Below, in pieces: positions 28,056 to 39,824 of a DNA stretch of 64,000 nt. The notes under the pieces are model-generated. The model saw only the letters and a list, made by a program, of their open reading frames with translations. It made no database searches and was not told where the DNA came from. Position numbers and translations under genes: made by a program. Within the stretch, counting starts at the first letter, position 1. Every line of letters starts with the position of its first letter. This DNA comes from Oscillospiraceae bacterium. GTDB lineage: Bacteria; Bacillota; Clostridia; Oscillospirales; Acutalibacteraceae. The DNA lies in the NCBI GenBank assembly GCA_015065685.1, contig SVPU01000003.1, positions 62,001 through 126,000 on the forward strand, written 5' to 3'.

Positions 28056-28844
28056 ATGGCGAGAATTTGTCCGCTTTACAGTGGGTCAACGGGTAACAGC
28101 ACATACATAGGAACAGAAAATGGCGGAATAATTGTTGATGCGGGTGCATCCCTCAAGGGAATTGAAATGGCACTCAGTACAGCGGGCGGCAAATTAGAGG
28201 AGATAAAAGCCGTTGCAATCACACACGAGCATATTGACCATGTGAAAGGCTTAAAACCCCTTTTGAATAAGACTAAAGCGCCGCTTATTGCAACCTACAA
28301 AACAATAAATGCCCTCATTTCGCTTGATAAAGTGCCGAGCGGAATTAGAGTTATTTGCATTGAAGATAAACCGATTGATATTGAAGGAATAGAAATACAA
28401 CGTTTTGCCACAATTCACGACTGTGAGGGCTCTAGTGGGTATACATTCACCTTGCCCGATAGTAAAAGGATTGCTGTGTGTACCGATTTGGGTGTGGTTA
28501 CAAACACTGTTCGCGAAGCAATAAAGCAAAGCGATGTTGTGCTTCTTGAATCTAACCACGATATTGATATGCTTAAAAGGGGACCATATCCGCCCGCGCT
28601 TAAAACACGCATTTTATCTGAAAAGGGGCATATTTCAAATGCCGCGTGTGCGGCCGAGCTTTGCGGCTTGCTTGAGAGCGGCACCCAAAGATTTATTTTG
28701 GGACACTTGAGCCAAAAAAACAACACACCACTTATTGCCAAGGTGTGTGCCGAATCGGCTCTTATGGATATAGGTGCAAAGAATGGCAGAGATTATCTCT
28801 TGAAGGTAGCATCTCCCACGGGAAATGGGGTGACCGTATTTTGA
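28056..28844 (+). CDS. walJ: MBL-fold metallohydrolase, WalJ/YycJ-like
   Basis: This 262-residue metallo-beta-lactamase-fold protein begins ICPLYSGSTGNSTYIGT, typical of the YycJ/WalJ group. It has the metal-binding THEHIDHVKG (HxHxDH), a later TDLGVVTNTV with the bridging Asp, and RFILGHLSQKNN with the last His. WalJ proteins are cytoplasmic and in some Firmicutes are linked to the WalRK system and to coordination of cell division with DNA replication. No walRK is present here, so the symbol is by similarity only. GGAGGTGTGATAA gives the ribosome site. The stop overlaps the rlmH start, so the two are translationally coupled. Confidence 0.85.
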   Translation: MARICPLYSGSTGNSTYIGTENGGIIVDAGASLKGIEMALSTAGGKLEEIKAVAITHEHIDHVKGLKPLLNKTKAPLIATYKTINALISLDKVPSGIRVICIEDKPIDIEGIEIQRFATIHDCEGSSGYTFTLPDSKRIAVCTDLGVVTNTVREAIKQSDVVLLESNHDIDMLKRGPYPPALKTRILSEKGHISNAACAAELCGLLESGTQRFILGHLSQKNNTPLIAKVCAESALMDIGAKNGRDYLLKVASPTGNGVTVF

Positions 28845-29320
28845 TTAAGGTTACGGTTATAGCCCTTGGCAAGCTCAAAGAAAAGTACTTAAGAGACGCG
28901 GTTGAGGAATACACAAAGCGCCTTTCAAGGTATTGTAAATTAGAAATTTTTGAAATAGAGCCCGAAAGGCTCTCGGAAAAGCCGAGCGGTTCGGAAATTT
29001 CGGCCGCGTTATCCTGCGAAAAGGAAAAAATATTAAAAAAGATTCCGCAAAACAGCACGGTTGTTTCGCTTTGCATAGAAGGGAAAGAAAAAAGCAGTGA
29101 GGAATTTGCGGCGGTGGTGGAAGAGCAGGTTGATGCGGGGAAAAACCTCACCCTTATAATCGGTAGCTCTTATGGGCTTTCGGATGAGGTGAAAAAGGCA
29201 TCTGATATAAGGCTTTCATTGTCGAAAATGACCTTTCCGCACCAGCTTTTCAGAGTGATGCTGTTAGAACAGCTGTATAGAGCTTTCAAAATTAACGAGG
29301 GCTCACAATATCATAAATAA
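28841..29320 (+). CDS. rlmH: 23S rRNA (pseudouridine-1915 N3) methyltransferase
   Basis: This SPOUT-class methyltransferase of 159 residues methylates pseudouridine 1915 in helix 69 of 23S rRNA. The sequence starts IKVTVIALGKLKEKYLRDAV and ends MTFPHQLFRVMLLEQLYRAF then KINEGSQYHK, which is diagnostic; LTLIIGSSYGLSDEV is the SAM-binding knot loop. The start is TTG 28841, overlapping the walJ stop as TTGA, with GGGGTGA upstream. A longer upstream open frame exists, but the normal RlmH length supports this start. A terminator follows. Confidence 0.93.
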   Translation: MIKVTVIALGKLKEKYLRDAVEEYTKRLSRYCKLEIFEIEPERLSEKPSGSEISAALSCEKEKILKKIPQNSTVVSLCIEGKEKSSEEFAAVVEEQVDAGKNLTLIIGSSYGLSDEVKKASDIRLSLSKMTFPHQLFRVMLLEQLYRAFKINEGSQYHK

Positions 29321-29333
29321 GATTTTTTAAATT

Positions 29334-29367
29334 AACTGTAGACAGTTTTCTGTCTGCAGTTTTTTTA
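29334..29367 (+). terminator. Terminator after rlmH
   Basis: AACTGTAGACAG and CTGTCTGCAGTT pair around TTTT and are followed by a run of seven T. It closes the host operon before the phage-like cassette. Confidence 0.92.
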
Positions 29368-29425
29368 TTTGTCGGTGAATGGCAATTCAATTTGAGCTAT
29401 TTTGTTTTTGCCGGGAGGAATGCTT

Positions 29426-29695
29426 ATGAAAGAGAACGATAAACTGCTTTATAAAACCCTGAAAACCTTACTAAATGAAAAACTGTCCGAAGCAGAGGTA
29501 GAGTCGCTTAAGGCTGAGGGATTTGTGATAAATAATCCCACGAGGAAAACTGCTGTGATGATAGCGCTTTATAAAAAGGCTTCTTCGGGAGACCTTTCGG
29601 CTATAAAGGAGTTGCGTTCGATTGTGAGTGAAAAAAACGATGAAAAGTCTGCGCAGACCAAGGCGGTGATGATTATTGACGACATCGGAAATTAA
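29426..29695 (+). CDS. Small terminase-like protein
   Basis: This 89-residue protein is predicted mostly helical. The segment ALYKKASSGDLSAIKELRSI is reminiscent of the 'A..GD..A.k.L' helix seen in small phage terminase and DNA-recognition subunits. It precedes the large terminase gene by one base, the usual place for TerS, but no clear helix-turn-helix is visible and it is short, so the call rests mainly on position. ATG 29426 is 7 bases from GGGAGGA; an ATG at 29420 is too close. It is the first gene of the virion cassette. Confidence 0.5.
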   Translation: MKENDKLLYKTLKTLLNEKLSEAEVESLKAEGFVINNPTRKTAVMIALYKKASSGDLSAIKELRSIVSEKNDEKSAQTKAVMIIDDIGN

Positions 29696-29696
29696 G

Positions 29697-30980
29697 ATGT
29701 CGAAAATAGTTGGCGAAGGCTATGATGAGTTTTGGAACTGCAAAAAACGATACCGCGTTTTAAAGGGTGGAAAGGGTTCTAAAAAATCCGCCACCACTGC
29801 TTTGAATTTTATTTTCAGGCTTATGAAAGAAAAAGAAAGCAATTTGCTTGTTGTGCGTCAGATTATGAACACCCACAGAGATTCAACCTTTGCTCAGCTT
29901 AAGTGGGCACAGGAAAGGTTGGGGGTTTCGCACCTTTGGAATAATACCGTCTCTCCGCTTGAGATGACCTATAAACCAACGGGGCAGAAAATTCTTTTCA
30001 GAGGATTTGATGATGTGCTTAAAATTGCTTCAACAACCGTGTCAAAAGGTTATCTCAATTATGTTTGGATTGAAGAGGCTTTTGAAATCTCTGCTGAAGC
30101 CGATTTTGATAAATTGGACCTATCGGTACCGAGGGGTAAAATACCACCGCCTCTTTACAAGCAAACCACAGTGACCTTCAACCCCTGGAGCGAGGGGCAT
30201 TGGCTTAAAAAACGCTTTTTTGACAATGCTTCTAGCGATGTTGCCACCTTTTCAACCAATTATTTAATAAATGAATTCTTGGACAAAACCGATAGGCTTG
30301 TTTTCCAACGAATGAAGGAAGTAAACCCCAGAAAATATGAGGTTGCGGGGCTTGGAAATTGGGGGATATCGGAGGGTCTTGTGTTTGAGAATTGGCAAAT
30401 AGGCAAAAAGAACATTAAAACAGAAGAGGAATATAAATGGAAAAGCTTTTTTGGTCTTGATTATGGCTATACCAACGACCCCACGGCATTTATTGCCTTT
30501 AAAGCCAACCCGATAGACCGCGAGATTTATATCTTCAGAGAGTTTTATAAAAAGCGTATGCTTAATTGCGATATTGCCGAAGAGATAAAAAAGCTCGGAT
30601 TCTCAAAGGAAAAAATTCGTGCCGATTCGGCAGAGCCTAAATCTAACGATGATTTGCGGCGAATGGGAATCAGCAGAATTATGCCTTCGGTTAAAGGGCG
30701 GGACAGCATTTTAAACGGAATCGCAAAAATAAGCGAATATAAAATAACGGTTGACCCCGCTTGCGTGAATATGATAAGAGAACTTTCTACCTATATCTAT
30801 GATGAACGCAGCAATGAACGAGGGCAGAGAATGCCGAAGGATTCTGATAACCATTTGTGTGATGCACTACGATATGCATTCGAGGATGTTAAATTTTTTC
30901 ATCCGCAAAGGGCTTCGAACAGGCTCCAAAACGATGGAGAAATAACTACTACAGATTTAAACGGAGGTTGGGATATATGA
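29697..30980 (+). CDS. Phage terminase large subunit (PBSX family)
   Basis: A 427-residue DNA-packaging motor. The ATPase half has RVLKGGKGSKKSATTALNF at the Walker A position (residues about 22-30). The usual Gly before Lys is replaced by Lys (GSKKS instead of GSGKS). LNYVWIEEAFE is the Walker B-like DE/EE region. The nuclease half has FGLDYGYTNDPTAF, RADSAEPKSNDDL and DNHLCDALRYAFED, giving the acidic metal-binding residues of the RNase H-like fold. The length is normal for PBSX-type TerL. The ATG starts one base after the TerS-like stop, with GGA 8 bases upstream; an in-frame TTG at 29676 would overlap. Residues look intact apart from Walker A. Confidence 0.9.
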   Translation: MSKIVGEGYDEFWNCKKRYRVLKGGKGSKKSATTALNFIFRLMKEKESNLLVVRQIMNTHRDSTFAQLKWAQERLGVSHLWNNTVSPLEMTYKPTGQKILFRGFDDVLKIASTTVSKGYLNYVWIEEAFEISAEADFDKLDLSVPRGKIPPPLYKQTTVTFNPWSEGHWLKKRFFDNASSDVATFSTNYLINEFLDKTDRLVFQRMKEVNPRKYEVAGLGNWGISEGLVFENWQIGKKNIKTEEEYKWKSFFGLDYGYTNDPTAFIAFKANPIDREIYIFREFYKKRMLNCDIAEEIKKLGFSKEKIRADSAEPKSNDDLRRMGISRIMPSVKGRDSILNGIAKISEYKITVDPACVNMIRELSTYIYDERSNERGQRMPKDSDNHLCDALRYAFEDVKFFHPQRASNRLQNDGEITTTDLNGGWDI

Positions 30981-31156
30981 TAATTCTTTTAACATTTCTT
31001 ATTGCGTTAGCGGCGTTCTCAGTAGGCTTTCTTTTAGGAAGCTTAAAACCCGCGCTTAAAACCGAAACGCACAACATAAAGCCTGATTTTATTACCGAAG
31101 TAACCACAAAGGAATTTGAAAATTTCCTTAATTATGACGGTAGCGAGCAAGTTTAA
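30977..31156 (+). CDS. Small single-pass membrane protein in the phage cassette
   Basis: This 59-residue protein has one N-terminal membrane helix (IILLTFLIALAAFSVGFLLG) and a polar tail of about 35 residues. The start ATG overlaps the terL stop (ATGA), with GGAGG 9 bases upstream. It could be an accessory holin, spanin-like or regulatory peptide; there is no family match that I recognise. Its position between the terminase and scaffold genes is unusual for a lysis protein. Confidence 0.6.
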   Translation: MIILLTFLIALAAFSVGFLLGSLKPALKTETHNIKPDFITEVTTKEFENFLNYDGSEQV

Positions 31157-31180
31157 AATTATTAAAGGAAAGGAATTTTT

Positions 31181-31831
31181 ATGAAGGAAAAATTAAAAGA
31201 AAAAAGCGCCTTACCACAGGCCGAAGAAGATGCTTTGCTTGAAAAAGAGGAAACCATACCGCAAAATCAATCAAACGATGTTTTAATTCCTGTGAAATTT
31301 AATAAAGAGACCAAAAATTTGAAGTTGGAAGAGGCTTCTTTACTCGCACAAAAAGGAATGAAATTTGATTTAATAGCTGAACAGTATGCAGTTCTCAAAG
31401 ATTTGAGTAAAAGTATTGGGAAAAGTGTGCCGCAGTTTTTAGAAGATTTAAAAACTGAGCAATACCTCAAAAGAAAAGAGGAACTTGTTTTAAAATGCGG
31501 CGGGGATGAAGCACTGGCATCCCACATTATTGACCTTGAAAACCAAAAGGCAAATGTGCAAATTGCGGGTGTAGAGGAATTTTTTGATTTGTTCCCCGAG
31601 ATAAAGAAAATTGAAACTTTACCGCAAGAAGTTTTGTCACGTTGTGAACTGAACGGAACACTTTTGACCGATGAGTATCTTCGCTATTTGTATTTGAAAA
31701 CCAAACAAAAAGTAGAGGCAGAAAAAAGGCAGCATAATGCCGAAAAGTTAAGTATTGGCTCACAACTTAACCACTCGGGTGTTATTAATGCCGAGGCTGT
31801 CGAATTTTTAAAAGGACTATGGAAGTCTTAA
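31181..31831 (+). CDS. Scaffold-like phage head protein
   Basis: A 216-residue, highly charged and mostly helical protein with a Glu/Lys/Gln-rich N-terminus, a central EYLKRKEELVLKCGGDEALA-like region and a coiled-coil-prone C-terminus ending AVEFLKGLWKS. Size, composition and position right before the major capsid gene (22 bases) fit a head scaffolding protein. There is no sequence motif that proves it. AAAGGAAAGG precedes the ATG. Confidence 0.55.
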   Translation: MKEKLKEKSALPQAEEDALLEKEETIPQNQSNDVLIPVKFNKETKNLKLEEASLLAQKGMKFDLIAEQYAVLKDLSKSIGKSVPQFLEDLKTEQYLKRKEELVLKCGGDEALASHIIDLENQKANVQIAGVEEFFDLFPEIKKIETLPQEVLSRCELNGTLLTDEYLRYLYLKTKQKVEAEKRQHNAEKLSIGSQLNHSGVINAEAVEFLKGLWKS

Positions 31832-31853
31832 ATTTAATTGGAGGAAAAAATAA

Positions 31854-33014
31854 ATGTCAATTAATTCAATAGAAAATATCACAAAATATTCAAACGAACT
31901 TGATAAAATGTTCGAACAAAAGAGTGCGGTCGGCTTTTTTGCAGATAATGCACTTGCAACTAAATTTGTTGGCGCTAAAACTGTTATTATTCCCGATATT
32001 GATTTTCAGGGTTTAGCAGATTATGACCGCGATGCAGGTTTCACACGCGGTGCAATAACAGTTTCCAACTCTTCTTACACAATGTCTATGGATAGGGCAC
32101 GTTCTTTGCAGATTGACAGAGAAGATATGTCAGAGACAGGCATTGCAAATCTTGCAGGTAAAATTTTAGGCGAATATGTTCGCACAAAGGTTGTTCCCGA
32201 GTGTGATGCTTATGTGCTTTCAAAACTTGCGGGTTTGGCAATCAGCCGTTCAAATATTGTTGAGGGCGACACTGCAAAGCCTTTTGAAACACTTTGCGAA
32301 CTTATTAATAAAGTTCAGTCAGAGGTTGGTTATGATGAAGAATTGGTTGCTTTTGTGGACAGTTATATGTTTGCAGCTCTTCAGAATTCAACCGAAATTT
32401 CAAAACTTATCACAGTTTCCGATTTCAAACAGGGAGATGTAAACCTCAAGGTTAAGTCAATTAACGGTGTGGCAATTATCCCCGTGGTTTCTGAGAGAAT
32501 GAAAACTGCTTATGATTTTGTAAACACTGCGGCAGGCGGTTTTGCTCCTCAGGGCAACGCAAAGGAAACATATATGCTCGTTTGTCCTAAAAACGGCGCT
32601 CATCTCGTTAAGAAAACCGAGAATATGCGAATCTTTACACCTGAACAGAATATTGATGCAGATGCTTATAAGTTCGATTACAGAATTTATTATGATGTAT
32701 TTGTTAAGAAAAGCGGTCTTGATGCGGTTTGGGCTTGGGTTTCACCCTCTGTTAACGTTACTGCATTAATGCCTGCAGATAACGGCGATGTTACAGAACT
32801 CAGCGTTGATGCCGAGAGCGAAGGCGACCTCACATATCAGTGGTATTCCTGCAAGGATGCAAACAAGAGCGGCGCTGTTAAAATAGCAGGTGCAACCACC
32901 GATACTTACACTATTCCCGAAGACTTAGATAACGGTACATATTACTTCTTTGTAAGAGTTACAGTTGACAATATGGCAACAACCGATTCGGAAGTTTTCA
33001 CAGTAACAATTTAA
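31854..33014 (+). CDS. Phage major capsid protein with C-terminal Ig-like domain
   Basis: In this 386-residue protein, residues 1-300 resemble clostridial HK97-fold capsid proteins. Visible are TKFVGAKTVIIPDIDFQGLA, DYDRDAGFTRGAITVS, SLQIDREDMSE and EYVRTKVVPECDAYVLSKLA at the N-terminal arm and spine helix, with DAYKFDYRIYYDVFV near the end. The last 85 residues, starting ALMPADNGDVTELSV and including YQWYSC and GTYYFFVRVTV, form an Ig-like domain of the kind that decorates phage heads and may bind surface glycans. GGAGG lies upstream. A strong hairpin follows at 33028. Confidence 0.85.
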   Translation: MSINSIENITKYSNELDKMFEQKSAVGFFADNALATKFVGAKTVIIPDIDFQGLADYDRDAGFTRGAITVSNSSYTMSMDRARSLQIDREDMSETGIANLAGKILGEYVRTKVVPECDAYVLSKLAGLAISRSNIVEGDTAKPFETLCELINKVQSEVGYDEELVAFVDSYMFAALQNSTEISKLITVSDFKQGDVNLKVKSINGVAIIPVVSERMKTAYDFVNTAAGGFAPQGNAKETYMLVCPKNGAHLVKKTENMRIFTPEQNIDADAYKFDYRIYYDVFVKKSGLDAVWAWVSPSVNVTALMPADNGDVTELSVDAESEGDLTYQWYSCKDANKSGAVKIAGATTDTYTIPEDLDNGTYYFFVRVTVDNMATTDSEVFTVTI

Positions 33015-33027
33015 AAAGTTACACAAA

Positions 33028-33054
33028 AAGGCTCGGCCCAACGGGTCGGGCCTT
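33028..33054 (+). terminator. Hairpin between capsid and portal genes
   Basis: AAGGCTCGGCC pairs with GGTCGGGCCTT (with G-U pairs) around a short loop. It lacks a following T run (CAAAAT follows). It may be a partial terminator or an mRNA-stabilising 3' hairpin that raises capsid expression relative to the downstream genes. Confidence 0.6.
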
Positions 33055-33077
33055 CAAAATATAAAGGAGGTTAAGTT

Positions 33078-34667
33078 ATGAAACAAACACCGATGGAAAT
33101 TTTCGGCGAGTATCAGGTGGGATGCAATTATAAGAATTCTTTAGGTAACCGGGGCTTATATGAGCAAAGCCGAATTAACGAGCGTTTTTTTATAGGCGAC
33201 CAATGGTATGGCGCAAAATGCGGTAATGAAAGACCACTTGTAAGACATAATGTTATAAAAAGAATAGGCGATTATAAAATGTCGCAGATACTGAGCAATG
33301 CCTTTAATATTACCTATTCGGCTGACGGTATACCGAGTGCTGATTATAACGAAGAAGAATATAAGGATATCAGTCTTTTAAAAGACAGTTCTGCTGATGA
33401 AAAGGAAATCAATTATGTGATGTCGGCATTTGGGAATTATTATAATGTGGCATCTGAAAGGGTTGGTTTATCCACGCTTCACGAGAAGGTTTTAAGAAGA
33501 GCCTTTATAAGCGGAAGTGCCGTGCTTTACACCTATTGGGACAGCACTGTGAAAACAGGTTTTTATGTGGATGATGCCAAGAAAACTGAACTTAAAGGTG
33601 ACATATGCTGTGAGGTACTTGATATTAACGATATTGTTTTTGCTGACCCTTATATTGAGGATGTGCAAAAACAACCGTATATTATAATTTCAAGCCGAAA
33701 AGACAAGGAATCGGTTTTAAGAGAAGCGCGTCTTAATGGTGCGGACATCACAACATTAAGACAAATTGAGGAGGATGCCCAAGACGGCAAACTCACGGTT
33801 TTAACAAAACTTTATAAGGAATATAAAGCGGGGACAGGCTATATAATTAAAAGTGTAAAGGTTACTGAAAATGCGATTGTGCGACGGGAATTTGACACAT
33901 CTCTCAGACTTTATCCGTTGGCGCTTTTCAGTTGGGAACGCAAAAACAACTGCATTTACGGCGAGAGCGAAATTACATATCTCATCCCTAACCAGATTGC
34001 AATCAACAGAATGATAACCGCTAATGTGTGGTCCGCTATGACAACGGGAATGCCCATAATGGTTGTTAACGGCGACACCGTAACCGATAAAATTTCAAAT
34101 GACCCCGGTCAGATAATTAAGGTTTTCGGCAGTAACGAAGATGTTGCGGGAGCGGTTAAATATGTTTCACCGCCGTCATTCACGAAAGATTTCGATAACA
34201 GCATTAACACGCTTATAGAAAACACACTTACCCAAAGCGGTGCTAACGAGGTGGCGCTTGGTGACAGCAAAGCAGAAAATGCCACCGCGCTTATCACAAT
34301 GCGAGATTCGGCTTTAATGCCGCTTCAGATGATAAAGAACCGTTTTTATGTTTTTTGTGAAGATATTGCGAGAATTTGGGCGGATTTTTGGCTCACTCAT
34401 TACGGCAAAAGAATGCTTGAACTAAAGGACAGTAAAGGCAGACGCTATATTCCGTTTGATGCAGAGAGATATGCATCATTGGTTGTGGGAGCGAAGGTCG
34501 ACGTGTCTTCTGCCACAGTTTATAACGAGCGCGAAAAAGCAGAAATGCTTGTAACATTATTCGAAAAAGGCGTTATTAACCGTGCGGAACTTATTGAAAG
34601 ATTGCCTAAAGGGTTACTCAGCAAAAGCGAGGATTTATTAAAGGAAAATGAAAAGGAGAATGAGTAA
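33078..34667 (+). CDS. Phage portal protein
   Basis: A 529-residue protein starting with NERFFIGDQWYGAKCGNERP and PLVRHNVIKRIGDYKMSQIL, a pattern found at the start of podovirus/SPP1-type portals. The middle has GESEITYLIPNQIAINRMIT, typical of the portal stem region, and the end is charged and helical (LLSKSEDLLKENEKENE). It would form the dodecameric channel for DNA packaging. AAAGGAGG lies 9 bases before the ATG. The stop overlaps the next start (TAATG). Placement after, rather than before, the capsid gene is unusual. Confidence 0.85.
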   Translation: MKQTPMEIFGEYQVGCNYKNSLGNRGLYEQSRINERFFIGDQWYGAKCGNERPLVRHNVIKRIGDYKMSQILSNAFNITYSADGIPSADYNEEEYKDISLLKDSSADEKEINYVMSAFGNYYNVASERVGLSTLHEKVLRRAFISGSAVLYTYWDSTVKTGFYVDDAKKTELKGDICCEVLDINDIVFADPYIEDVQKQPYIIISSRKDKESVLREARLNGADITTLRQIEEDAQDGKLTVLTKLYKEYKAGTGYIIKSVKVTENAIVRREFDTSLRLYPLALFSWERKNNCIYGESEITYLIPNQIAINRMITANVWSAMTTGMPIMVVNGDTVTDKISNDPGQIIKVFGSNEDVAGAVKYVSPPSFTKDFDNSINTLIENTLTQSGANEVALGDSKAENATALITMRDSALMPLQMIKNRFYVFCEDIARIWADFWLTHYGKRMLELKDSKGRRYIPFDAERYASLVVGAKVDVSSATVYNEREKAEMLVTLFEKGVINRAELIERLPKGLLSKSEDLLKENEKENE

Positions 34668-35017
34668 TGAACGGATATGATTTATACGAAAAGGTGTTGA
34701 CAAGACTAGGTTATGTTGGCGGCAACACAGTCAATACCGAGCAAAGATTCTTTTCTTCCTTTTTAGAACTTTGTAATCAAATTGCGGCAGACCTTAAATT
34801 AGCAGAAATCAAAGATTATGAGCAACCGCTTGAACTCACACCCCAAGAGGCAGAAGCGCTTTGTTGCGGCACCGCAATGCTTTTGGCTTTTTCTGAGGGC
34901 GACAGTAATAAGAATAAACTTTTTACCGAAATATATAATGCAAAAAGGGCGGCGTTACTTTCCAAAACAGATTATATAATTGATAATCTGCCCGTTACAG
35001 AGAGCGGTGGTAATTGA
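34667..35017 (+). CDS. Head-tail adaptor-like protein
   Basis: A 116-residue protein, mainly helical: GYDLYEKVLTRLGYVGG, then RFFSSFLELCNQIAADLKL and LTPQEAEALCCGTAMLLAFS. Length, helical content and position between portal and nozzle-like genes fit a podovirus head-tail adaptor (the role of P22 gp4 or T7 gp11). The function is inferred from position only. Its start overlaps the portal stop, and its stop overlaps the next start. Confidence 0.55.
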   Translation: MNGYDLYEKVLTRLGYVGGNTVNTEQRFFSSFLELCNQIAADLKLAEIKDYEQPLELTPQEAEALCCGTAMLLAFSEGDSNKNKLFTEIYNAKRAALLSKTDYIIDNLPVTESGGN

Positions 35018-37059
35018 TGAGATATAATTCACTTAATAAAAGTAATGTTAAATTGGCAAAAATACCGCTTCTTGACGGCGGACTCAGTCTGTTCACTCCT
35101 GATGAAATAGGGGACAACCAACTAACAGTGGCGACAAATGTTGAGTTTATGAACGGCAAACTTTTAATGCGAGAGGGCATTAATGCTGACAAAAAGAATG
35201 TTTTGGATAGCAAGATGGTATCGGGCGCCAGGAATTATGATTATGTTCTGACCAATACAAAGGTACATTTCGGCGATGATTTAAAACGTGTGGTTTACGC
35301 AAAGGTAAGTTATGATGAATCAAACGATTTTATTTTCGTGTATTTGCTTTCGGCAGACAGACAAAACACACCCATTGGATATCTGCATTTTCAAAGAATG
35401 GATGACAGCACTTTTTACGCACCCGAAAAAATAGTTTTTTATTCAGGCAAAGCCCAAACGGGTGCAGGAATTTTTGCTTTTGTAACACTAAAAAATAAAT
35501 ATAATGAATTGCAGAAAGAATATGTGATTTATGAAGTTTCAAGTACACTTGACAGTTGGAACAGACTTCACGATTATTATGTGCCAACGGTATATATTAA
35601 CGGGCGGGGAGATATGTATGAAACGGCAAAAACTGCAGGCTCAGCGGTGACTACCGCACCAAAAACGCTTGAATCACCTAATTTACTTAACGGCAGATTT
35701 TATGCATATTACACTTCTGACGGTTACTCCACAAGCTTCCGTTTGCCTTACACACACATTGCAAATGAGGTGGTTACCTGCAGAATTTACTATAATTTAA
35801 CATCCTTCACCGATTGGGTGATTTATCCAAATGAGACTTCGGACAAACAAACCCTTTTCGGTGCGGAAATCACGGCAAATGTTGACCGTGAAAAAGGTAT
35901 TGTTTATTTTACCGCCTCAGAAAGCAATTTTGCAGTGCCTGTGATAAATATATATCGCGAAAATAATATCAGAATCTCAGCCAAAACCAATCAACACGAT
36001 AATTTTGAAAAGGTAGTTTCGGCTAATATTCAAACGGCGGTTGGCTCGGAAATCGTTTTTTCAGGCGGAGAAAACAACAACGAAATATATTATACCACTT
36101 TTGATAACCCGCTTTATTTCCCGAAGGTTACGGAAAATCTTATTGGCTTTAATAAAACGCCCATAACTGCGCTTTCGGCTGTGGGGGAAAAGGTTATATG
36201 TTACAAACCCGATGGTATTTATACGCTTGTGTTAAAAAAGAAAGCACCCATAAACACAACGGCGCTTCTCATTGATAATAATTCGCTTTTTTACAATGCC
36301 TTTGAGGTGGATATTGATTGCCTTAGTGATAAAGTAGGGTGTGATAGCCAAGGGTATGTGTGTAACGGCAAAACCGAATCAGTATTTTTAGGGAGCACTC
36401 AAAAACTTTATAAAATTTCTCTGAAAACTAAACAGTTAGAAGAATTTTCAGATAAAATCCAACAAATCATATCTTCGGTAATGAAAAGCAATGAATTGAA
36501 ATCGGTTTTCGAGACTGACAAATATTATGTGTTGAGTTTCCTACATAACGCTGTTATTATAAATAAGGATAAAGATGAAACGGCATACATTTGGGGATGG
36601 GACCGCAATCTCAATATTATAGATGGTTTCACACAGCAAAACAATACGGTTTTACTTTGTTGCAATGATGCTAAGACTATTTGTTACGCTGCTACCTTTA
36701 TGGGTGACGCAGATAAGTTTTTAGATATAAAAAACGGTGTTTTAAGTGAAATTAAGAACAAAATCCGATGCGATATCAAAACAAAAGAATTCACCCTCGG
36801 GTCATTTGACTGCAAAACCGAAATTTTAACGGTTAGTTTGGAACTGAAGGCTAAGTCAAGGATAAGGCTTACCTTTTTGGACAGGGGAAAAACATTGGCG
36901 AGTTTCTTCATAGAAAAATCTGATTTTGCGGAAGACACAAATTATATAAAGATTCCTTGTTTTTTCCACGGTGTGAGTACATTTCAGATTAAACTCGAGG
37001 CAGAAAAAGAGTTTAGTCTCGGCAAAACAAACATATACTATACTGAAATGTTAAGATAG
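35017..37059 (+). CDS. Podovirus tail nozzle-like protein
   Basis: A 680-residue beta-rich protein. Near the N-terminus, KIPLLDGGLSLFTPDEIGDN followed by VATNVEFMNGKLLMREG reproduces the pattern 'GG.........e...L.N.....G.l..R.G' of podovirus tail nozzle/stabilisation proteins (P22 gp10 and T7 gp12 types). Repeated beta segments such as YYTTFDNPLYFPKV and GWDRNLNIIDGFTQQNNTVL suggest a propeller. The ATG lies inside the previous stop (TGATG), with GGTGG upstream. If right, the particle would have a short non-contractile tail. No receptor-binding fibre follows. Confidence 0.6.
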   Translation: MRYNSLNKSNVKLAKIPLLDGGLSLFTPDEIGDNQLTVATNVEFMNGKLLMREGINADKKNVLDSKMVSGARNYDYVLTNTKVHFGDDLKRVVYAKVSYDESNDFIFVYLLSADRQNTPIGYLHFQRMDDSTFYAPEKIVFYSGKAQTGAGIFAFVTLKNKYNELQKEYVIYEVSSTLDSWNRLHDYYVPTVYINGRGDMYETAKTAGSAVTTAPKTLESPNLLNGRFYAYYTSDGYSTSFRLPYTHIANEVVTCRIYYNLTSFTDWVIYPNETSDKQTLFGAEITANVDREKGIVYFTASESNFAVPVINIYRENNIRISAKTNQHDNFEKVVSANIQTAVGSEIVFSGGENNNEIYYTTFDNPLYFPKVTENLIGFNKTPITALSAVGEKVICYKPDGIYTLVLKKKAPINTTALLIDNNSLFYNAFEVDIDCLSDKVGCDSQGYVCNGKTESVFLGSTQKLYKISLKTKQLEEFSDKIQQIISSVMKSNELKSVFETDKYYVLSFLHNAVIINKDKDETAYIWGWDRNLNIIDGFTQQNNTVLLCCNDAKTICYAATFMGDADKFLDIKNGVLSEIKNKIRCDIKTKEFTLGSFDCKTEILTVSLELKAKSRIRLTFLDRGKTLASFFIEKSDFAEDTNYIKIPCFFHGVSTFQIKLEAEKEFSLGKTNIYYTEMLR

Positions 37060-37069
37060 GAGAAATATT

Positions 37070-38260
37070 ATGAAAAGGGTAGTGGCGGTGTTATTGGCGG
37101 TGGCGGTTTTTCTCACTCTCGGCGGTTGTTTCGTTAAACCTACTCAATATGAAACCGAAGAGGGACAATTTGCAAATTCTGCTTCCACGGGGGTGTGGAT
37201 TTCTTATATGGAAATAAGAAAAATGCTCACCTCTGAGAATGGGTTTAAAGCAGAGGTTAGTAAACTTGTTGAAAACTGTCTTGCTTTAAAGATTGAGAAT
37301 GTTTATGTGCATGTGCGTTCTCATTGCGACTCGCTTTACCCTTCAGAATATTTTCCACTTGTTGAATCTGCAAAGGGTATAGGCTTCGATACTTTCGGCT
37401 ATATTGCGGATGAATTACATAAAAATTCAATCAATGTTCACGCTTGGATAAATCCTTACAGAGTATCATCGAGCACAGATATAAACGCATTACCGCAAGA
37501 CAGTATTGCAAGACAGTGGCTTTTTGACGATGACACCGAAAACGATAAAAACATTGCATTTCATAACGGGATTTATCTGAATCCCGCCGAAGAAGATGTA
37601 CGAAGACTCATTCTTAACGGCATAAGGGAAATAATGGATAATTACCAAGTTGAGTCAATTCATTTTGATGATTATTTCTATCCGACAGGTAACACCGAGT
37701 TCGATAACAAAAGTTACGAAGAATATAAAAACACCACAAAAAAGCCATTGCCGTTGGATGATTGGCGCAGAGCAAATGTGAGCACCCTGATTAGCAGCTG
37801 TTATGCTCTTGTTAAATATAAAGATAGCGACACCTTGTTCGGTGTCAGTCCTTCTGCTTCGATAGAAAAAAATAAAAATGAAATATATGCAGATGTTGGT
37901 AAGTGGATAGAAGACGGAATATTAGATTATGTTGTTCCGCAGCTTTATTTCGGGTTTGAATATCCAATGGAAGAATATAGGTTTGAAAATTTACTGAGCG
38001 AATGGAAAAGCCTTGCAAGCAAGAACGAAAATGTTAAATTGATTATCGGTTTGCCGACATATAAAATCGGAAGCGTTTTGGAGCCCGATAAGGCCGAATG
38101 GCAAACCAAAACAGATATAATTGCAAAACAAGCGGAGCTTTGCTTTAAGGATTCGGCTGTTTCGGGATATGTTTTCTTTTCATATTCTTCGCTGTTTTCA
38201 CAAGAAGATTTAAACACAAAGCAACGGAACGCTTATTTAGAATATATGAAAAATAAATAA
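37070..38260 (+). CDS. GHL10 (DUF187) glycoside hydrolase-like lipoprotein
   Basis: This 396-residue protein has a lipoprotein signal, MKRVVAVLLAVAVFLTLGGC (lipobox LGGC), and then a TIM-barrel of the GHL10/DUF187 family: STGVWISYMEIRKML, NVYVHVRSHCDSLYPSEYF, INVHAWINPYRVSS, SIHFDDYFYPTG and GVSPSASIEKN. The DD of HFDDYFYP and the Glu/Asp around the barrel rim are probable catalytic residues. Related proteins are bacterial cell-surface enzymes, perhaps acting on peptidoglycan or other glycans. Position next to a holin-like gene at the end of a virion cassette suggests a lysis or exit role, but a captured host gene is equally possible. GGAG lies upstream. Confidence 0.8.
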   Translation: MKRVVAVLLAVAVFLTLGGCFVKPTQYETEEGQFANSASTGVWISYMEIRKMLTSENGFKAEVSKLVENCLALKIENVYVHVRSHCDSLYPSEYFPLVESAKGIGFDTFGYIADELHKNSINVHAWINPYRVSSSTDINALPQDSIARQWLFDDDTENDKNIAFHNGIYLNPAEEDVRRLILNGIREIMDNYQVESIHFDDYFYPTGNTEFDNKSYEEYKNTTKKPLPLDDWRRANVSTLISSCYALVKYKDSDTLFGVSPSASIEKNKNEIYADVGKWIEDGILDYVVPQLYFGFEYPMEEYRFENLLSEWKSLASKNENVKLIIGLPTYKIGSVLEPDKAEWQTKTDIIAKQAELCFKDSAVSGYVFFSYSSLFSQEDLNTKQRNAYLEYMKNK

Positions 38261-38275
38261 TTCGGAGGAAAATTT

Positions 38276-38527
38276 GTGGATAGCACGGTAATTGTTGCCG
38301 CAATTTCCTTTGTGGGAACCCTAATAGGCACGGCAGGGGGTATTATAGCATCGGGAAAGCTTACACAATATCGGCTTGAACAGTTAGAGAAAAAGGTGGA
38401 TTTGCAGAGCAAAACCGCCTCGCGAATCCCTGTTATTGAAGAAAAAATAGTCAACATTAACAGAAGAATACACCTGCTTGAAAACGAACAGGTTTCTGAT
38501 TATGGAAATTTTGATGCATGGCAATAA
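38276..38527 (+). CDS. Holin-like (XhlA-type) small membrane protein
   Basis: An 83-residue protein starting at GTG with GGAGG upstream. One N-terminal membrane helix (IVAAISFVGTLIGTAGGIIA) is followed by a coiled coil (YRLEQLEKKVDLQ, IPVIEEKIVNINRRIHLLEN). The topology and size match small phage holins or XhlA-like lysis accessory proteins. As the last gene of the cassette it supports the reading that the cassette includes a lysis function. A strong terminator follows. Confidence 0.65.
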   Translation: MDSTVIVAAISFVGTLIGTAGGIIASGKLTQYRLEQLEKKVDLQSKTASRIPVIEEKIVNINRRIHLLENEQVSDYGNFDAWQ

Positions 38528-38531
38528 AAAC

Positions 38532-38568
38532 AAAAAAGGCGAGCTCTTTTAAAAGAGTTCGCCTTTTT
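38532..38568. terminator. Bidirectional terminator closing the phage cassette
   Basis: AAAAAGGCGAGCTCTTTT pairs with AAAAGAGTTCGCCTTTTT (one mismatch). It lies between the holin-like stop (+) and the PRPP synthetase stop (-), with A/T runs on both sides. Confidence 0.93.
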
Positions 38569-38576
38569 AATATGCT

Positions 38577-39710
38577 TTAATTATTCTCTTGATTGTATTT
38601 TGCAACAACCTTTTTAATTCTGTCAACAGGGTCTAAAAGACCGCTGATTGAATTGTCATAGTTTAAGGTATCAACAAGAAGTGCAATGTATTTCGACATA
38701 TTAACACTGCAATACCATTCTCTTTTTAAAAGCTCTTCAGGTTGATAGATAAGGTTTGTGGTGAAAATTTTATCAATAAGACCGTTTTTATAATATTCAT
38801 CAAACTTATCGTATCCTTCAACAAACAAACCGAAGGTTGAGAAAACAAATATTCTGCCCGCACCCTTTTCTTTTAATTTTGCGGCAATATCGAGCATTGA
38901 TTCACCTGATGAAATCATATCATCAACCAAAATCAAGTCCTTGCCAACAATATCGTTGCCTAAAAACTCGTGAGCTTCAATCGGATTTCTGCCGTTAACA
39001 ATAACGGAATAATTACGGCGCTTATAGAACATACCAAGCTCTAAGCCTAAAACGGAGGAGTAGTAAATACAACGACCCATACCGCCCTCATCGGGAGACA
39101 CAATCATTGTATGGTCGCGGTCAAGCTTAATGTCGGGAACGGTTTTGAGAAGGGCTTTAATCATCTGATATGCAGCCTGAACATTATCAAAGCCGTCAAG
39201 CGGGATGGCGTTGTTAACGCGGGGGTCGTGAGCATCGAAGGTGATAATATTTTTAACACCCATTTGAACCAGCTCTTGAAGAGCCATTGCACAGTCCATA
39301 GATTCGCGTGAAGAACGTCTGTGCTGTCTGCCCTCATAAAGCATCGGCATAATAACTGTGATTCTTCTTGCTTTTCCGCCTAAAGCAGCGATAACACGCT
39401 TTAAGTCTTGGAAATGGTCATCGGGACTCATCGGAACGGTCATTCCGTACATCTTATAGGTAACATTGTAATTAAAACAGTCGCAAATGATGTAAACATC
39501 GAGTCCGCGAGCAGTGTGGTTGAGAACGGCTTTTGCTTCACCTGTGCCGAATCTCGGACAGTTTGCCGAAACCACAAAAGATTCATCTTCAGGGATATTG
39601 CGCCACTGCTTTAAATAATAGTCAACCTTAGAAGAAATGTCCTCGCAACCGCGCATACTGATGAGTGCAAGGTCGCCATAGGGTGAATGCTTAAAATCGA
39701 TACTTGCCAT
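38577..39710 (-). CDS. prs: Ribose-phosphate pyrophosphokinase (PRPP synthetase)
   Basis: This 377-residue cytoplasmic enzyme makes 5-phosphoribosyl-1-pyrophosphate from ribose-5-phosphate and ATP for nucleotide, His and Trp synthesis. Motifs are MPMLYEGRQHRRSSRES (ATP loop), IITFDAHDPRVNNAIP (metal and substrate) and LILVDDMISSGESMLDIAA (PRPP-binding loop). It is longer than the usual 315 residues, as in the variant common in clostridia. ATG 39710 is used because GGAGG precedes it by 7 bases; an earlier in-frame start would add 21 unlikely residues. It is single, with terminators on both sides. Confidence 0.9.
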   Translation of the reverse strand: MASIDFKHSPYGDLALISMRGCEDISSKVDYYLKQWRNIPEDESFVVSANCPRFGTGEAKAVLNHTARGLDVYIICDCFNYNVTYKMYGMTVPMSPDDHFQDLKRVIAALGGKARRITVIMPMLYEGRQHRRSSRESMDCAMALQELVQMGVKNIITFDAHDPRVNNAIPLDGFDNVQAAYQMIKALLKTVPDIKLDRDHTMIVSPDEGGMGRCIYYSSVLGLELGMFYKRRNYSVIVNGRNPIEAHEFLGNDIVGKDLILVDDMISSGESMLDIAAKLKEKGAGRIFVFSTFGLFVEGYDKFDEYYKNGLIDKIFTTNLIYQPEELLKREWYCSVNMSKYIALLVDTLNYDNSISGLLDPVDRIKKVVAKYNQENN

Positions 39711-39824
39711 AATTAACCTCCGCTTTTGAAATCCTTTTAAATTGTTATTAGCATTATAACATAAAAAGGCCACATAAAAAAGGCTTTTTTAAAATATTTT
39801 TAAATTTTTAACCGAAATTAAAAT

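Follow-up and report, generated by a model that had tools for sequence, protein, structure and literature searches.

A podovirus-derived, gene transfer agent-like cassette and its putative dispersed regulon in an uncultured clostridial family

The 64,000-nucleotide stretch of Oscillospiraceae DNA analyzed here (referred to throughout as the window) carries a cassette of phage-type genes at positions 29426–38527. Its source genome, labelled G000, is an assembly of 1.48 Mb in 24 contigs. The cassette contains ten open reading frames (ORFs), all on the + strand, between the host genes rlmH and prs. An earlier note on the window had described a virion-only cassette on one strand and left three explanations for it: a prophage remnant held by chance, a helper-dependent satellite, or a domesticated particle such as a gene transfer agent (GTA). 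The described gene content was confirmed, with TerL, capsid, portal and GHL10 identified by Pfam and PHROG searches and the tail nozzle by a structure match. The note had missed a promoter with a conserved motif at 29371–29403 (+), which consists of GTCGGTGAATGGC (29371–29383), a gap of 14 nt and the hexamer TATTTT (29398–29403).

Genes for packaging and the head come first (gene coordinates are all on the + strand). The 89-aa product of g1 (29426–29695, from an ATG) is called a small terminase (TerS)-like protein from its position and conservation; its predicted structure has four helices (pLDDT 83.5), and no helix-turn-helix (HTH) family matched in 21 members of this TerS type from related cassettes. 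The large terminase TerL is encoded by g2 (29697–30980; ATG start, with an in-frame TTG start at 29676), which matches Terminase_3 (1.2e-49) and Terminase_3C (4.5e-26). The ORF g3 (30968–31156) encodes a small membrane-like protein of 62 aa belonging to cluster c8, which is found in many of the related cassettes. A scaffold-like protein of 216 aa (g4; 31181–31831) was recognized by position and profile match, its family profile matching the gene that precedes the capsid gene in Bacillus phage Page (3.8e-16). The major capsid protein (g5; 31854–33014; 386 aa; phrog_422, 7.6e-72) has a C-terminal Ig-like stretch, as indicated by weak Ig/PKD matches in Pfam and by alignment.

The portal (g6; 33078–34667; 529 aa) matches phrog_156 (2.6e-24) and shares 31% identity with the portal of Bacillus phage Pascal. 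Between portal and nozzle lies an adaptor-like gene (g7; 34667–35017; 116 aa) that is kept in both element classes described below and has no convincing family match in Pfam or PHROG searches. The 681-aa product of g8 (35014–37059) has no family match by sequence, and sequence searches with the portal and nozzle profiles found no solved structure. The AlphaFold model of g8 (pLDDT 91.4) was matched by Foldseek, whose 27 best PDB matches are all podovirus tail or portal-tail chains, T7 gp12 and P22 gp10 among them, with TM-scores of 0.3–0.6; on this structural likeness, g8 is identified as a podoviral tail nozzle. A GHL10 glycosyl hydrolase with a lipoprotein-like N-terminus follows (g9; 37070–38260; PF02638, 1.2e-46), which is the sole full-length GHL10 match in the source genome. 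The last gene (g10; 38276–38527) encodes a holin-like membrane protein of 83 aa with a match to phrog_1863 (2.7e-8), a family of no assigned function, and its profile also matches genes adjoining lysins in sister-genus cassettes.

A terminator-like palindrome (38533–38568, no strand assigned) separates the cassette from prs, a terminator-like hairpin can be read 3′ of rlmH, and the nearest tRNA gene is 3.2 kb away. In agreement with the earlier note, no integrase, repressor or replication family matched among the cassette proteins in Pfam and PHROG, and no direct repeats of at least 14 nt bracket the cassette within 28700–39800. By these searches, the cassette has neither the integrase and att sites of a satellite resembling phage-inducible chromosomal islands (PICIs), nor the repressor, integration and replication genes that accompany structural genes in a functional prophage. 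Its particle proteins are of tailed-phage origin, as in GTAs.

A capsid search returned matches in 64 of 99 genomes, and the fetched loci split into two classes. Class A consists of cassettes like that of the window, with a TerS of ~90 aa, capsid of ~390 aa, portal of ~530 aa and nozzle of ~680 aa, followed by a lysis-type gene and flanked by ordinary host genes. Class B consists of prophages of the same virus lineage, which are elements separate from the cassette; they have a repressor cluster (S24 type, tested in locus L107), portals of ~600–640 aa, nozzles of ~730–840 aa, a large tail-side protein (1065–2691 aa, presumed to be an ejection protein), a fibre and an amidase (tested in L103). 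Related IMG/VR contigs are 34.5–34.8 kb long. The TerS of class B has an HTH (PF13022) in all five members tested from a cluster of seven. Loss of this HTH upon domestication was considered but not upheld in that form, as the prophage-type loci L134, L249 and L268 have a TerS of the class A family, whose lack of an HTH was checked in L134 only.

Within the genus of the source genome, the nozzle was matched in 57 of 70 genomes, 55 of them at 92 bits or more; this threshold defines the 55 carriers and 15 non-carriers referred to below. Class A cassettes also occur in five other genera of the family (labelled g40, g210, g232, g250 and g275). Relatives with named records are uncultured bacteria labelled “Oscillospiraceae”, “Ruminococcaceae” or “Clostridia”, many of which, judging by title, came from ruminant, horse or rabbit samples. 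Two cassettes of genus g40 (L137 and L174) have an unrelated large terminase in place of the Terminase_3 type (of Terminase_6N type in L137), so that the terminase has been exchanged in a cassette that is otherwise conserved.

The trees of the cassette largely follow those of its hosts. A concatenated TerL, capsid, portal and nozzle tree of 32 genomes shares 25 of 29 splits with that of rpoB; 300 permutations gave a mean of 0.27 and at most 2 shared splits. With five genomes of other genera added, 30 of 34 splits are shared; L137 and L174 were left out of these comparisons because their TerL is unrelated. Such mostly vertical inheritance, with diversification alongside the hosts, is among the defining features of GTAs. 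Mantel tests within the genus gave r of 0.54–0.70 (p 0.001) for TerL, capsid, portal, nozzle and GHL10. In a prophage control with eight taxa, four of five splits were host-congruent for TerL and one of five for the capsid, while random eight-taxon subsets of class A averaged 4.7 of five. The rpoB tree has 50 rows from 56 genomes requested, without G003, G026 and G044 (no match) and G002, G012 and G017 (partial match); 43 rows are of the genus (32 carriers and 11 non-carriers, G045 with its truncated cassette being scored as a non-carrier) and seven are others. Absence of the cassette is clustered on this tree, with five changes against a mean of 10.1 for shuffled non-carrier labels, and seven of the 11 placed non-carriers form one clade.

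Purifying selection was seen in every gene tested, a check that the earlier note had proposed. The ratio of nonsynonymous to synonymous substitutions (dN/dS), taken from the four closest pairs for genes called in both copies, was 0.03–0.05 for TerL, 0.006–0.06 for the capsid, 0.03–0.08 for the portal, 0.08–0.18 for the nozzle and 0.09–0.20 for GHL10; all called genes fell within 0–0.31, the maximum being that of the 62-aa g3. Host-congruent trees, clustered absence and low dN/dS together argue that the cassette is old, inherited and under selection. The ORFs for TerL, capsid, portal, adaptor and nozzle were all called in 42 of 47 cassettes; among the other five, L069 is decayed, L082 and L094 run into contig ends, and the adaptor was not called in L091 and L097.

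The synteny of rlmH, cassette and prs did not prove to be conserved. In most fetched relatives, the cassette is flanked by other host genes, and its site differs between subclades. A murA-MBL-rlmH run lies a few kb from the cassette, on its opposite side, in G008 (L099) and in sister-genus G566 (L179, read from ORFs), and murA is again near the cassette in L064; this recurrence suggests that the site there is possibly ancient or preferred.

The promoter motif joins the cassette to other loci. In relatives, GTCGGTGAATGTC lies upstream of TerS, 14 nt before a TATAAT-like -10 box. At up to two mismatches, it was found at 41 of 42 cassettes of the genus (0.1% in randomized sequence) and at 13 of 28 fibre loci (0.0% in randomized sequence), and it is exact in three of eight sister-genus cassettes. 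Searches that combined the -10 box with up to three mismatches were used for spacing and single sites only, since the control rises as well. The form GTCGGTGAATGKC has 81 exact sites in 45 of 70 genomes, compared with five for the reversed control. Among the 15 non-carriers, the only ones with any exact site are G045 and G043 (57% complete, the site lying in spoIIP). The 81 sites comprise 32 cassettes, 14 orphan fibres, five holin/lysin genes (one shown by Pfam to encode GH25, the other four assigned by resemblance), seven MuF-type or DUF6883 genes (three confirmed by Pfam, the rest by resemblance), eight sites near dnaA, three in recF and 12 other or unclassified sites. By coordinates, 13 of the 14 fibre sites are 51–70 nt from the gene start. 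From these sites, the cassette, fibre, lysis and MuF-type loci of relatives appear to form a dispersed regulon. GTA genomes are fully endogenized and often held at several loci, and here several loci are indicated by the motif in relatives; neither integrase nor att site was found with the cassette.

A variant, GTCAGTGAATGTCAG, occurs at L107:6622 and L108:6984 in prophages of the non-carrier clade, at or just past the end of a weakly ArpU-like gene (the label falls below NCBIfam cut-offs) and before TerS. Its position suggests a phage late promoter as the ancestor of the cassette promoter. The variant is present in two of 41 class B-type loci scanned, L107 and L108; matches in L229 and L255 are chance-like. 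In a search for the activator over 549 sequences (4.9 Mb, which include a minor part of the source genome), ArpU-like genes were found only in prophage- or phage-type loci.

Several sites mark other genes. In L505 (G055), the motif precedes a gene for a MuF (SPP1 gp7)-ribonuclease protein, which has a barstar-like neighbour, and L480 (G044) is alike by resemblance. Loci L503 and L508 have DUF6883 proteins with a conserved small neighbour in the same position, as do L501, L504 and L498 by resemblance. Proteins of ~199 aa lie directly under the motif in L500 (G045) and L509 (G041), the latter with no Pfam match; they could possibly be regulators.

Tail fibre genes are encoded outside the cassette. 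The earlier note had seen no tail fibre, and this stands for the cassette; the source genome, however, has an orphan fibre gene of 523 aa on contig C12 (4570–6141, outside the window) with fibre-family matches. It was reached through a weak C-terminal match (1.1e-4) to a class B-type fibre; a full class B-type fibre in the source genome was rejected on account of this weak and C-terminal-only match. Orphan fibres, with open frames of 169–840 aa (some of them ended by contig ends), combine a conserved N-terminal domain with collagen-like repeats; they also match phage tail-fibre families, in many cases via the repeats. They are present in 45 of 55 carriers and two of 15 non-carriers (p=1.8e-6).

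Capsule or exopolysaccharide (EPS) genes occur within six genes of the fibre at 13 of 28 loci (27 genomes), whereas the same queries found such genes at none of 47 cassette loci. The queries were taken from fibre loci, which favours the latter, and several loci end at contig ends. In the source genome, a sugar transferase gene (PF02397) lies directly downstream of the fibre gene, and neither holin nor endolysin accompanies the fibre at this second locus. The tail fibre of RcGTA binds capsular polysaccharide (PMC10218006), which makes a capsule link plausible here. In G037, Amidase_3 and an r1t-type holin (Pfam) follow the fibre within a few genes, as do members of the same clusters in G001 and G041. 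In the sister-genus locus L179, a single run contains capsid genes and, after the nozzle, genes for a fibre-like protein, Amidase_3-SPOR and holin-like proteins; the C-terminal half of the fibre-like gene resembles orphan fibres.

GHL10 is probably the lysin of the cassette, mainly because sister-genus cassettes hold other lysis-type genes at this place. Locus L179 has Amidase_3 at the cassette end instead of GHL10, and in the g40 cassettes the place is taken by an SH3 protein whose NlpC/P60 match is weak and below threshold. The GHL10 copy of the window has a lipoprotein signal, which a crude test detected in only 12 of 41 copies. A literature term search found no paper describing GHL10 as a lysin.

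We consider it probable that the cassette represents locus I of a GTA that derives from a podovirus and is inherited vertically in an uncultured clostridial family. GTAs have been defined by tailed-phage proteins, a fully endogenized genome often at several loci, mostly vertical inheritance, packaging of mostly random host DNA, a GTA genome that cannot be fully packaged, and delivery of DNA to other cells (Kogay et al., 2022, PMC9662315). Three of these six features could be assessed from genes alone, hence our label “GTA-like”. Under this interpretation, a putative trans-acting activator would recognize GTCGGTGAATGTC promoters and switch on the genes for the particle, together with those for fibre and lysis that many relatives carry at other loci. 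TerL and a TerS without a detectable DNA-recognition domain may fill capsids with chromosomal DNA, and portal, adaptor and nozzle would form a short tail. The orphan collagen-like fibre, presumably including the motif-less one of the source genome, might bind capsule or another surface glycan of related cells, to which DNA would be delivered. Producer cells could be lysed by GHL10 and the holin-like protein, or by an amidase or GH25 with a holin encoded elsewhere.

Several observations weigh against this interpretation. The cassette is known from its genes, not from a particle, packaged DNA or transfer. Its chromosomal position is not kept, common neighbours being found mainly in close relatives, and the prophage TerL tree is itself largely host-congruent in the eight-taxon control. 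The portal and nozzle are shortened or missing in the decayed cassettes L069 (G045) and L185 (G523), and cassette-type TerS occurs in the three prophage-type loci named above. The source genome's one exact motif site is that of the cassette itself; its fibre lacks the motif (five mismatches), as do 15 of the 28 fibre loci in all. In genomes at least 90% complete, the association between fibre and cassette is weaker (26 of 32 against two of eight, p 0.005). Independent losses are few, with a mean of 1.7 of four pairs changing the same way and none the other way, and with only four phylogenetically independent comparisons, this association alone is no proof. A low-carbon amino-acid signature is associated with RcGTA; in class A it is equivocal, with carbon use lower than in class B for TerL and adaptor, lower without significance for the capsid, higher for portal and scaffold, and equal for the nozzle.

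Among alternatives, we regard as unlikely a domesticated killer particle of the PBSX kind, one that would package host DNA but act against competitors, by killing or inhibiting them, instead of transferring genes. The cassette itself has no fibre, and the Phage_Mu_F-ribonuclease protein with its barstar-like neighbour in L505 and the DUF6883 proteins of L503 and L508 share its promoter in relatives. Such genes, however, are at only seven of 81 motif sites and at none in the source genome, and the terminase and portal genes are under strong purifying selection. It is more doubtful still that the capsid has been domesticated for another job, such as storage, secretion or DNA release in biofilms; the Ig-like stretch of the capsid, the lipoprotein-like hydrolase and the fibre genes near EPS genes would suit it, but terminase, portal and nozzle are kept, and their known use is DNA packaging and ejection. 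A PICI-like satellite using a helper phage for replication and spread is very improbable: related prophages do occur in the same genus, but the cassette has its own terminase, capsid and portal, integrase, primase and att repeat were not found, and its host-congruent tree largely refutes the idea. Equally improbable are prophage remnants decaying by chance, to which the truncated copies in G045 and G523 and the smaller gene number than in prophages could be attributed, but which nearly universally open ORFs, dN/dS far below 1 in tested genes, trees, clustered absence and a conserved promoter refute for the clade as a whole. Of the three options in the earlier note, the GTA-like one is hence best supported, through trees, selection, clustered absence and the promoter shared in relatives; the chance-held remnant is contradicted by these data, and the satellite is not supported.

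FpGTA of Faecalibacterium, a podovirus-like element of 10.5 kb and ten ORFs with a TerS without obvious DNA-binding domain, TerL, scaffold, capsid and portal, has an operon II with tail fibre, receptor-binding protein, holin and endolysin (Borodovich et al., 2026, PMC12946183). In gene plan, compared by description, it appears to be the closest published system: both have ten genes, a TerS without an obvious DNA-recognition domain and a podovirus-like set in gut Clostridia, and the plan of operon II is resembled by G037, G001 and G041. Unlike in FpGTA, the cassette here ends with GHL10, most fibre genes stand by themselves or close to capsule genes, and the loci are joined by a promoter motif; the word “promoter” is absent from the main text of PMC12946183. 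Among the literature matches listed, which did not extend to bioRxiv, no other clostridial GTA was found.

The GTA of Rhodobacter capsulatus (RcGTA) is siphovirus-like and alphaproteobacterial. It and its relatives (Rhodogtaviriformidae) are inherited vertically with the host and held at several loci (PMC9662315), features that the cassette, compared by description, shares. PBSX of Bacillus subtilis is a domesticated phage that forms a killing particle (PMC12946183), and its likeness, by description rather than sequence, is that of a domesticated phage of a Gram-positive bacterium. Class B prophages (L103–L110, L119 and L120) share homologous TerL, capsid, portal, adaptor and nozzle genes in similar order, but differ in their repressor, large tail-side proteins, amidase and longer portal and nozzle. 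Bacillus Pagevirus (Page, Pascal and Pony) are the closest named phages by portal (30–31%), and the nozzle and scaffold profiles also match Page; unlike the cassette, these podoviruses of ~39.8 kb have the portal gene ahead of that for the capsid.

Few GTAs have known genes, and most of these are alphaproteobacterial. FpGTA is the only podovirus-like GTA that we found in print, and the passages of its report consulted here show no evident host-tree comparison or promoter analysis. The present findings add a version from another gut lineage, one rich in species, that is passed on vertically and carries a diagnostic promoter, by which its genes can be found and which offers a route to the activator. 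Two questions also become testable: what selective forces favour GTAs, and whether capsule type directs them to kin. More tentatively, a podovirus-type GTA might work as a dispersed regulon across the family. Capsid, fibre and lysis genes would then all answer to one phage-derived late promoter class, kin to the GTCAGTGAATGTCAG site of the two sister prophages, as would, in certain lineages, genes for MuF toxins loaded into the particle and for immunity to them. With fibre genes in capsule loci, particles would recognize cells bearing the donor's own coat and pass DNA mainly to kin, and GHL10 would be a new class of phage-type lysin.

Inclusion of dnaA in the regulon was considered and, for most of the sites, rejected: six of the eight sites near dnaA overlap the coding sequence of spoIIP, ~1.1 kb from dnaA in six genomes, and three further sites are within that of recF (genes that we take to be spoIIP and recF from their proteins), such overlap indicating that these sites probably arose by chance. 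In L510 (G105) and L514 (G006), the motif is intergenic, 166–177 bp upstream of dnaA. Finally, a 9.6 kb human faecal “bacteriophage” scaffold (MT836592.1; L187) carries relatives of TerL, portal (28% identity) and nozzle in one run; it may be either a fragment or another element of the cassette kind.

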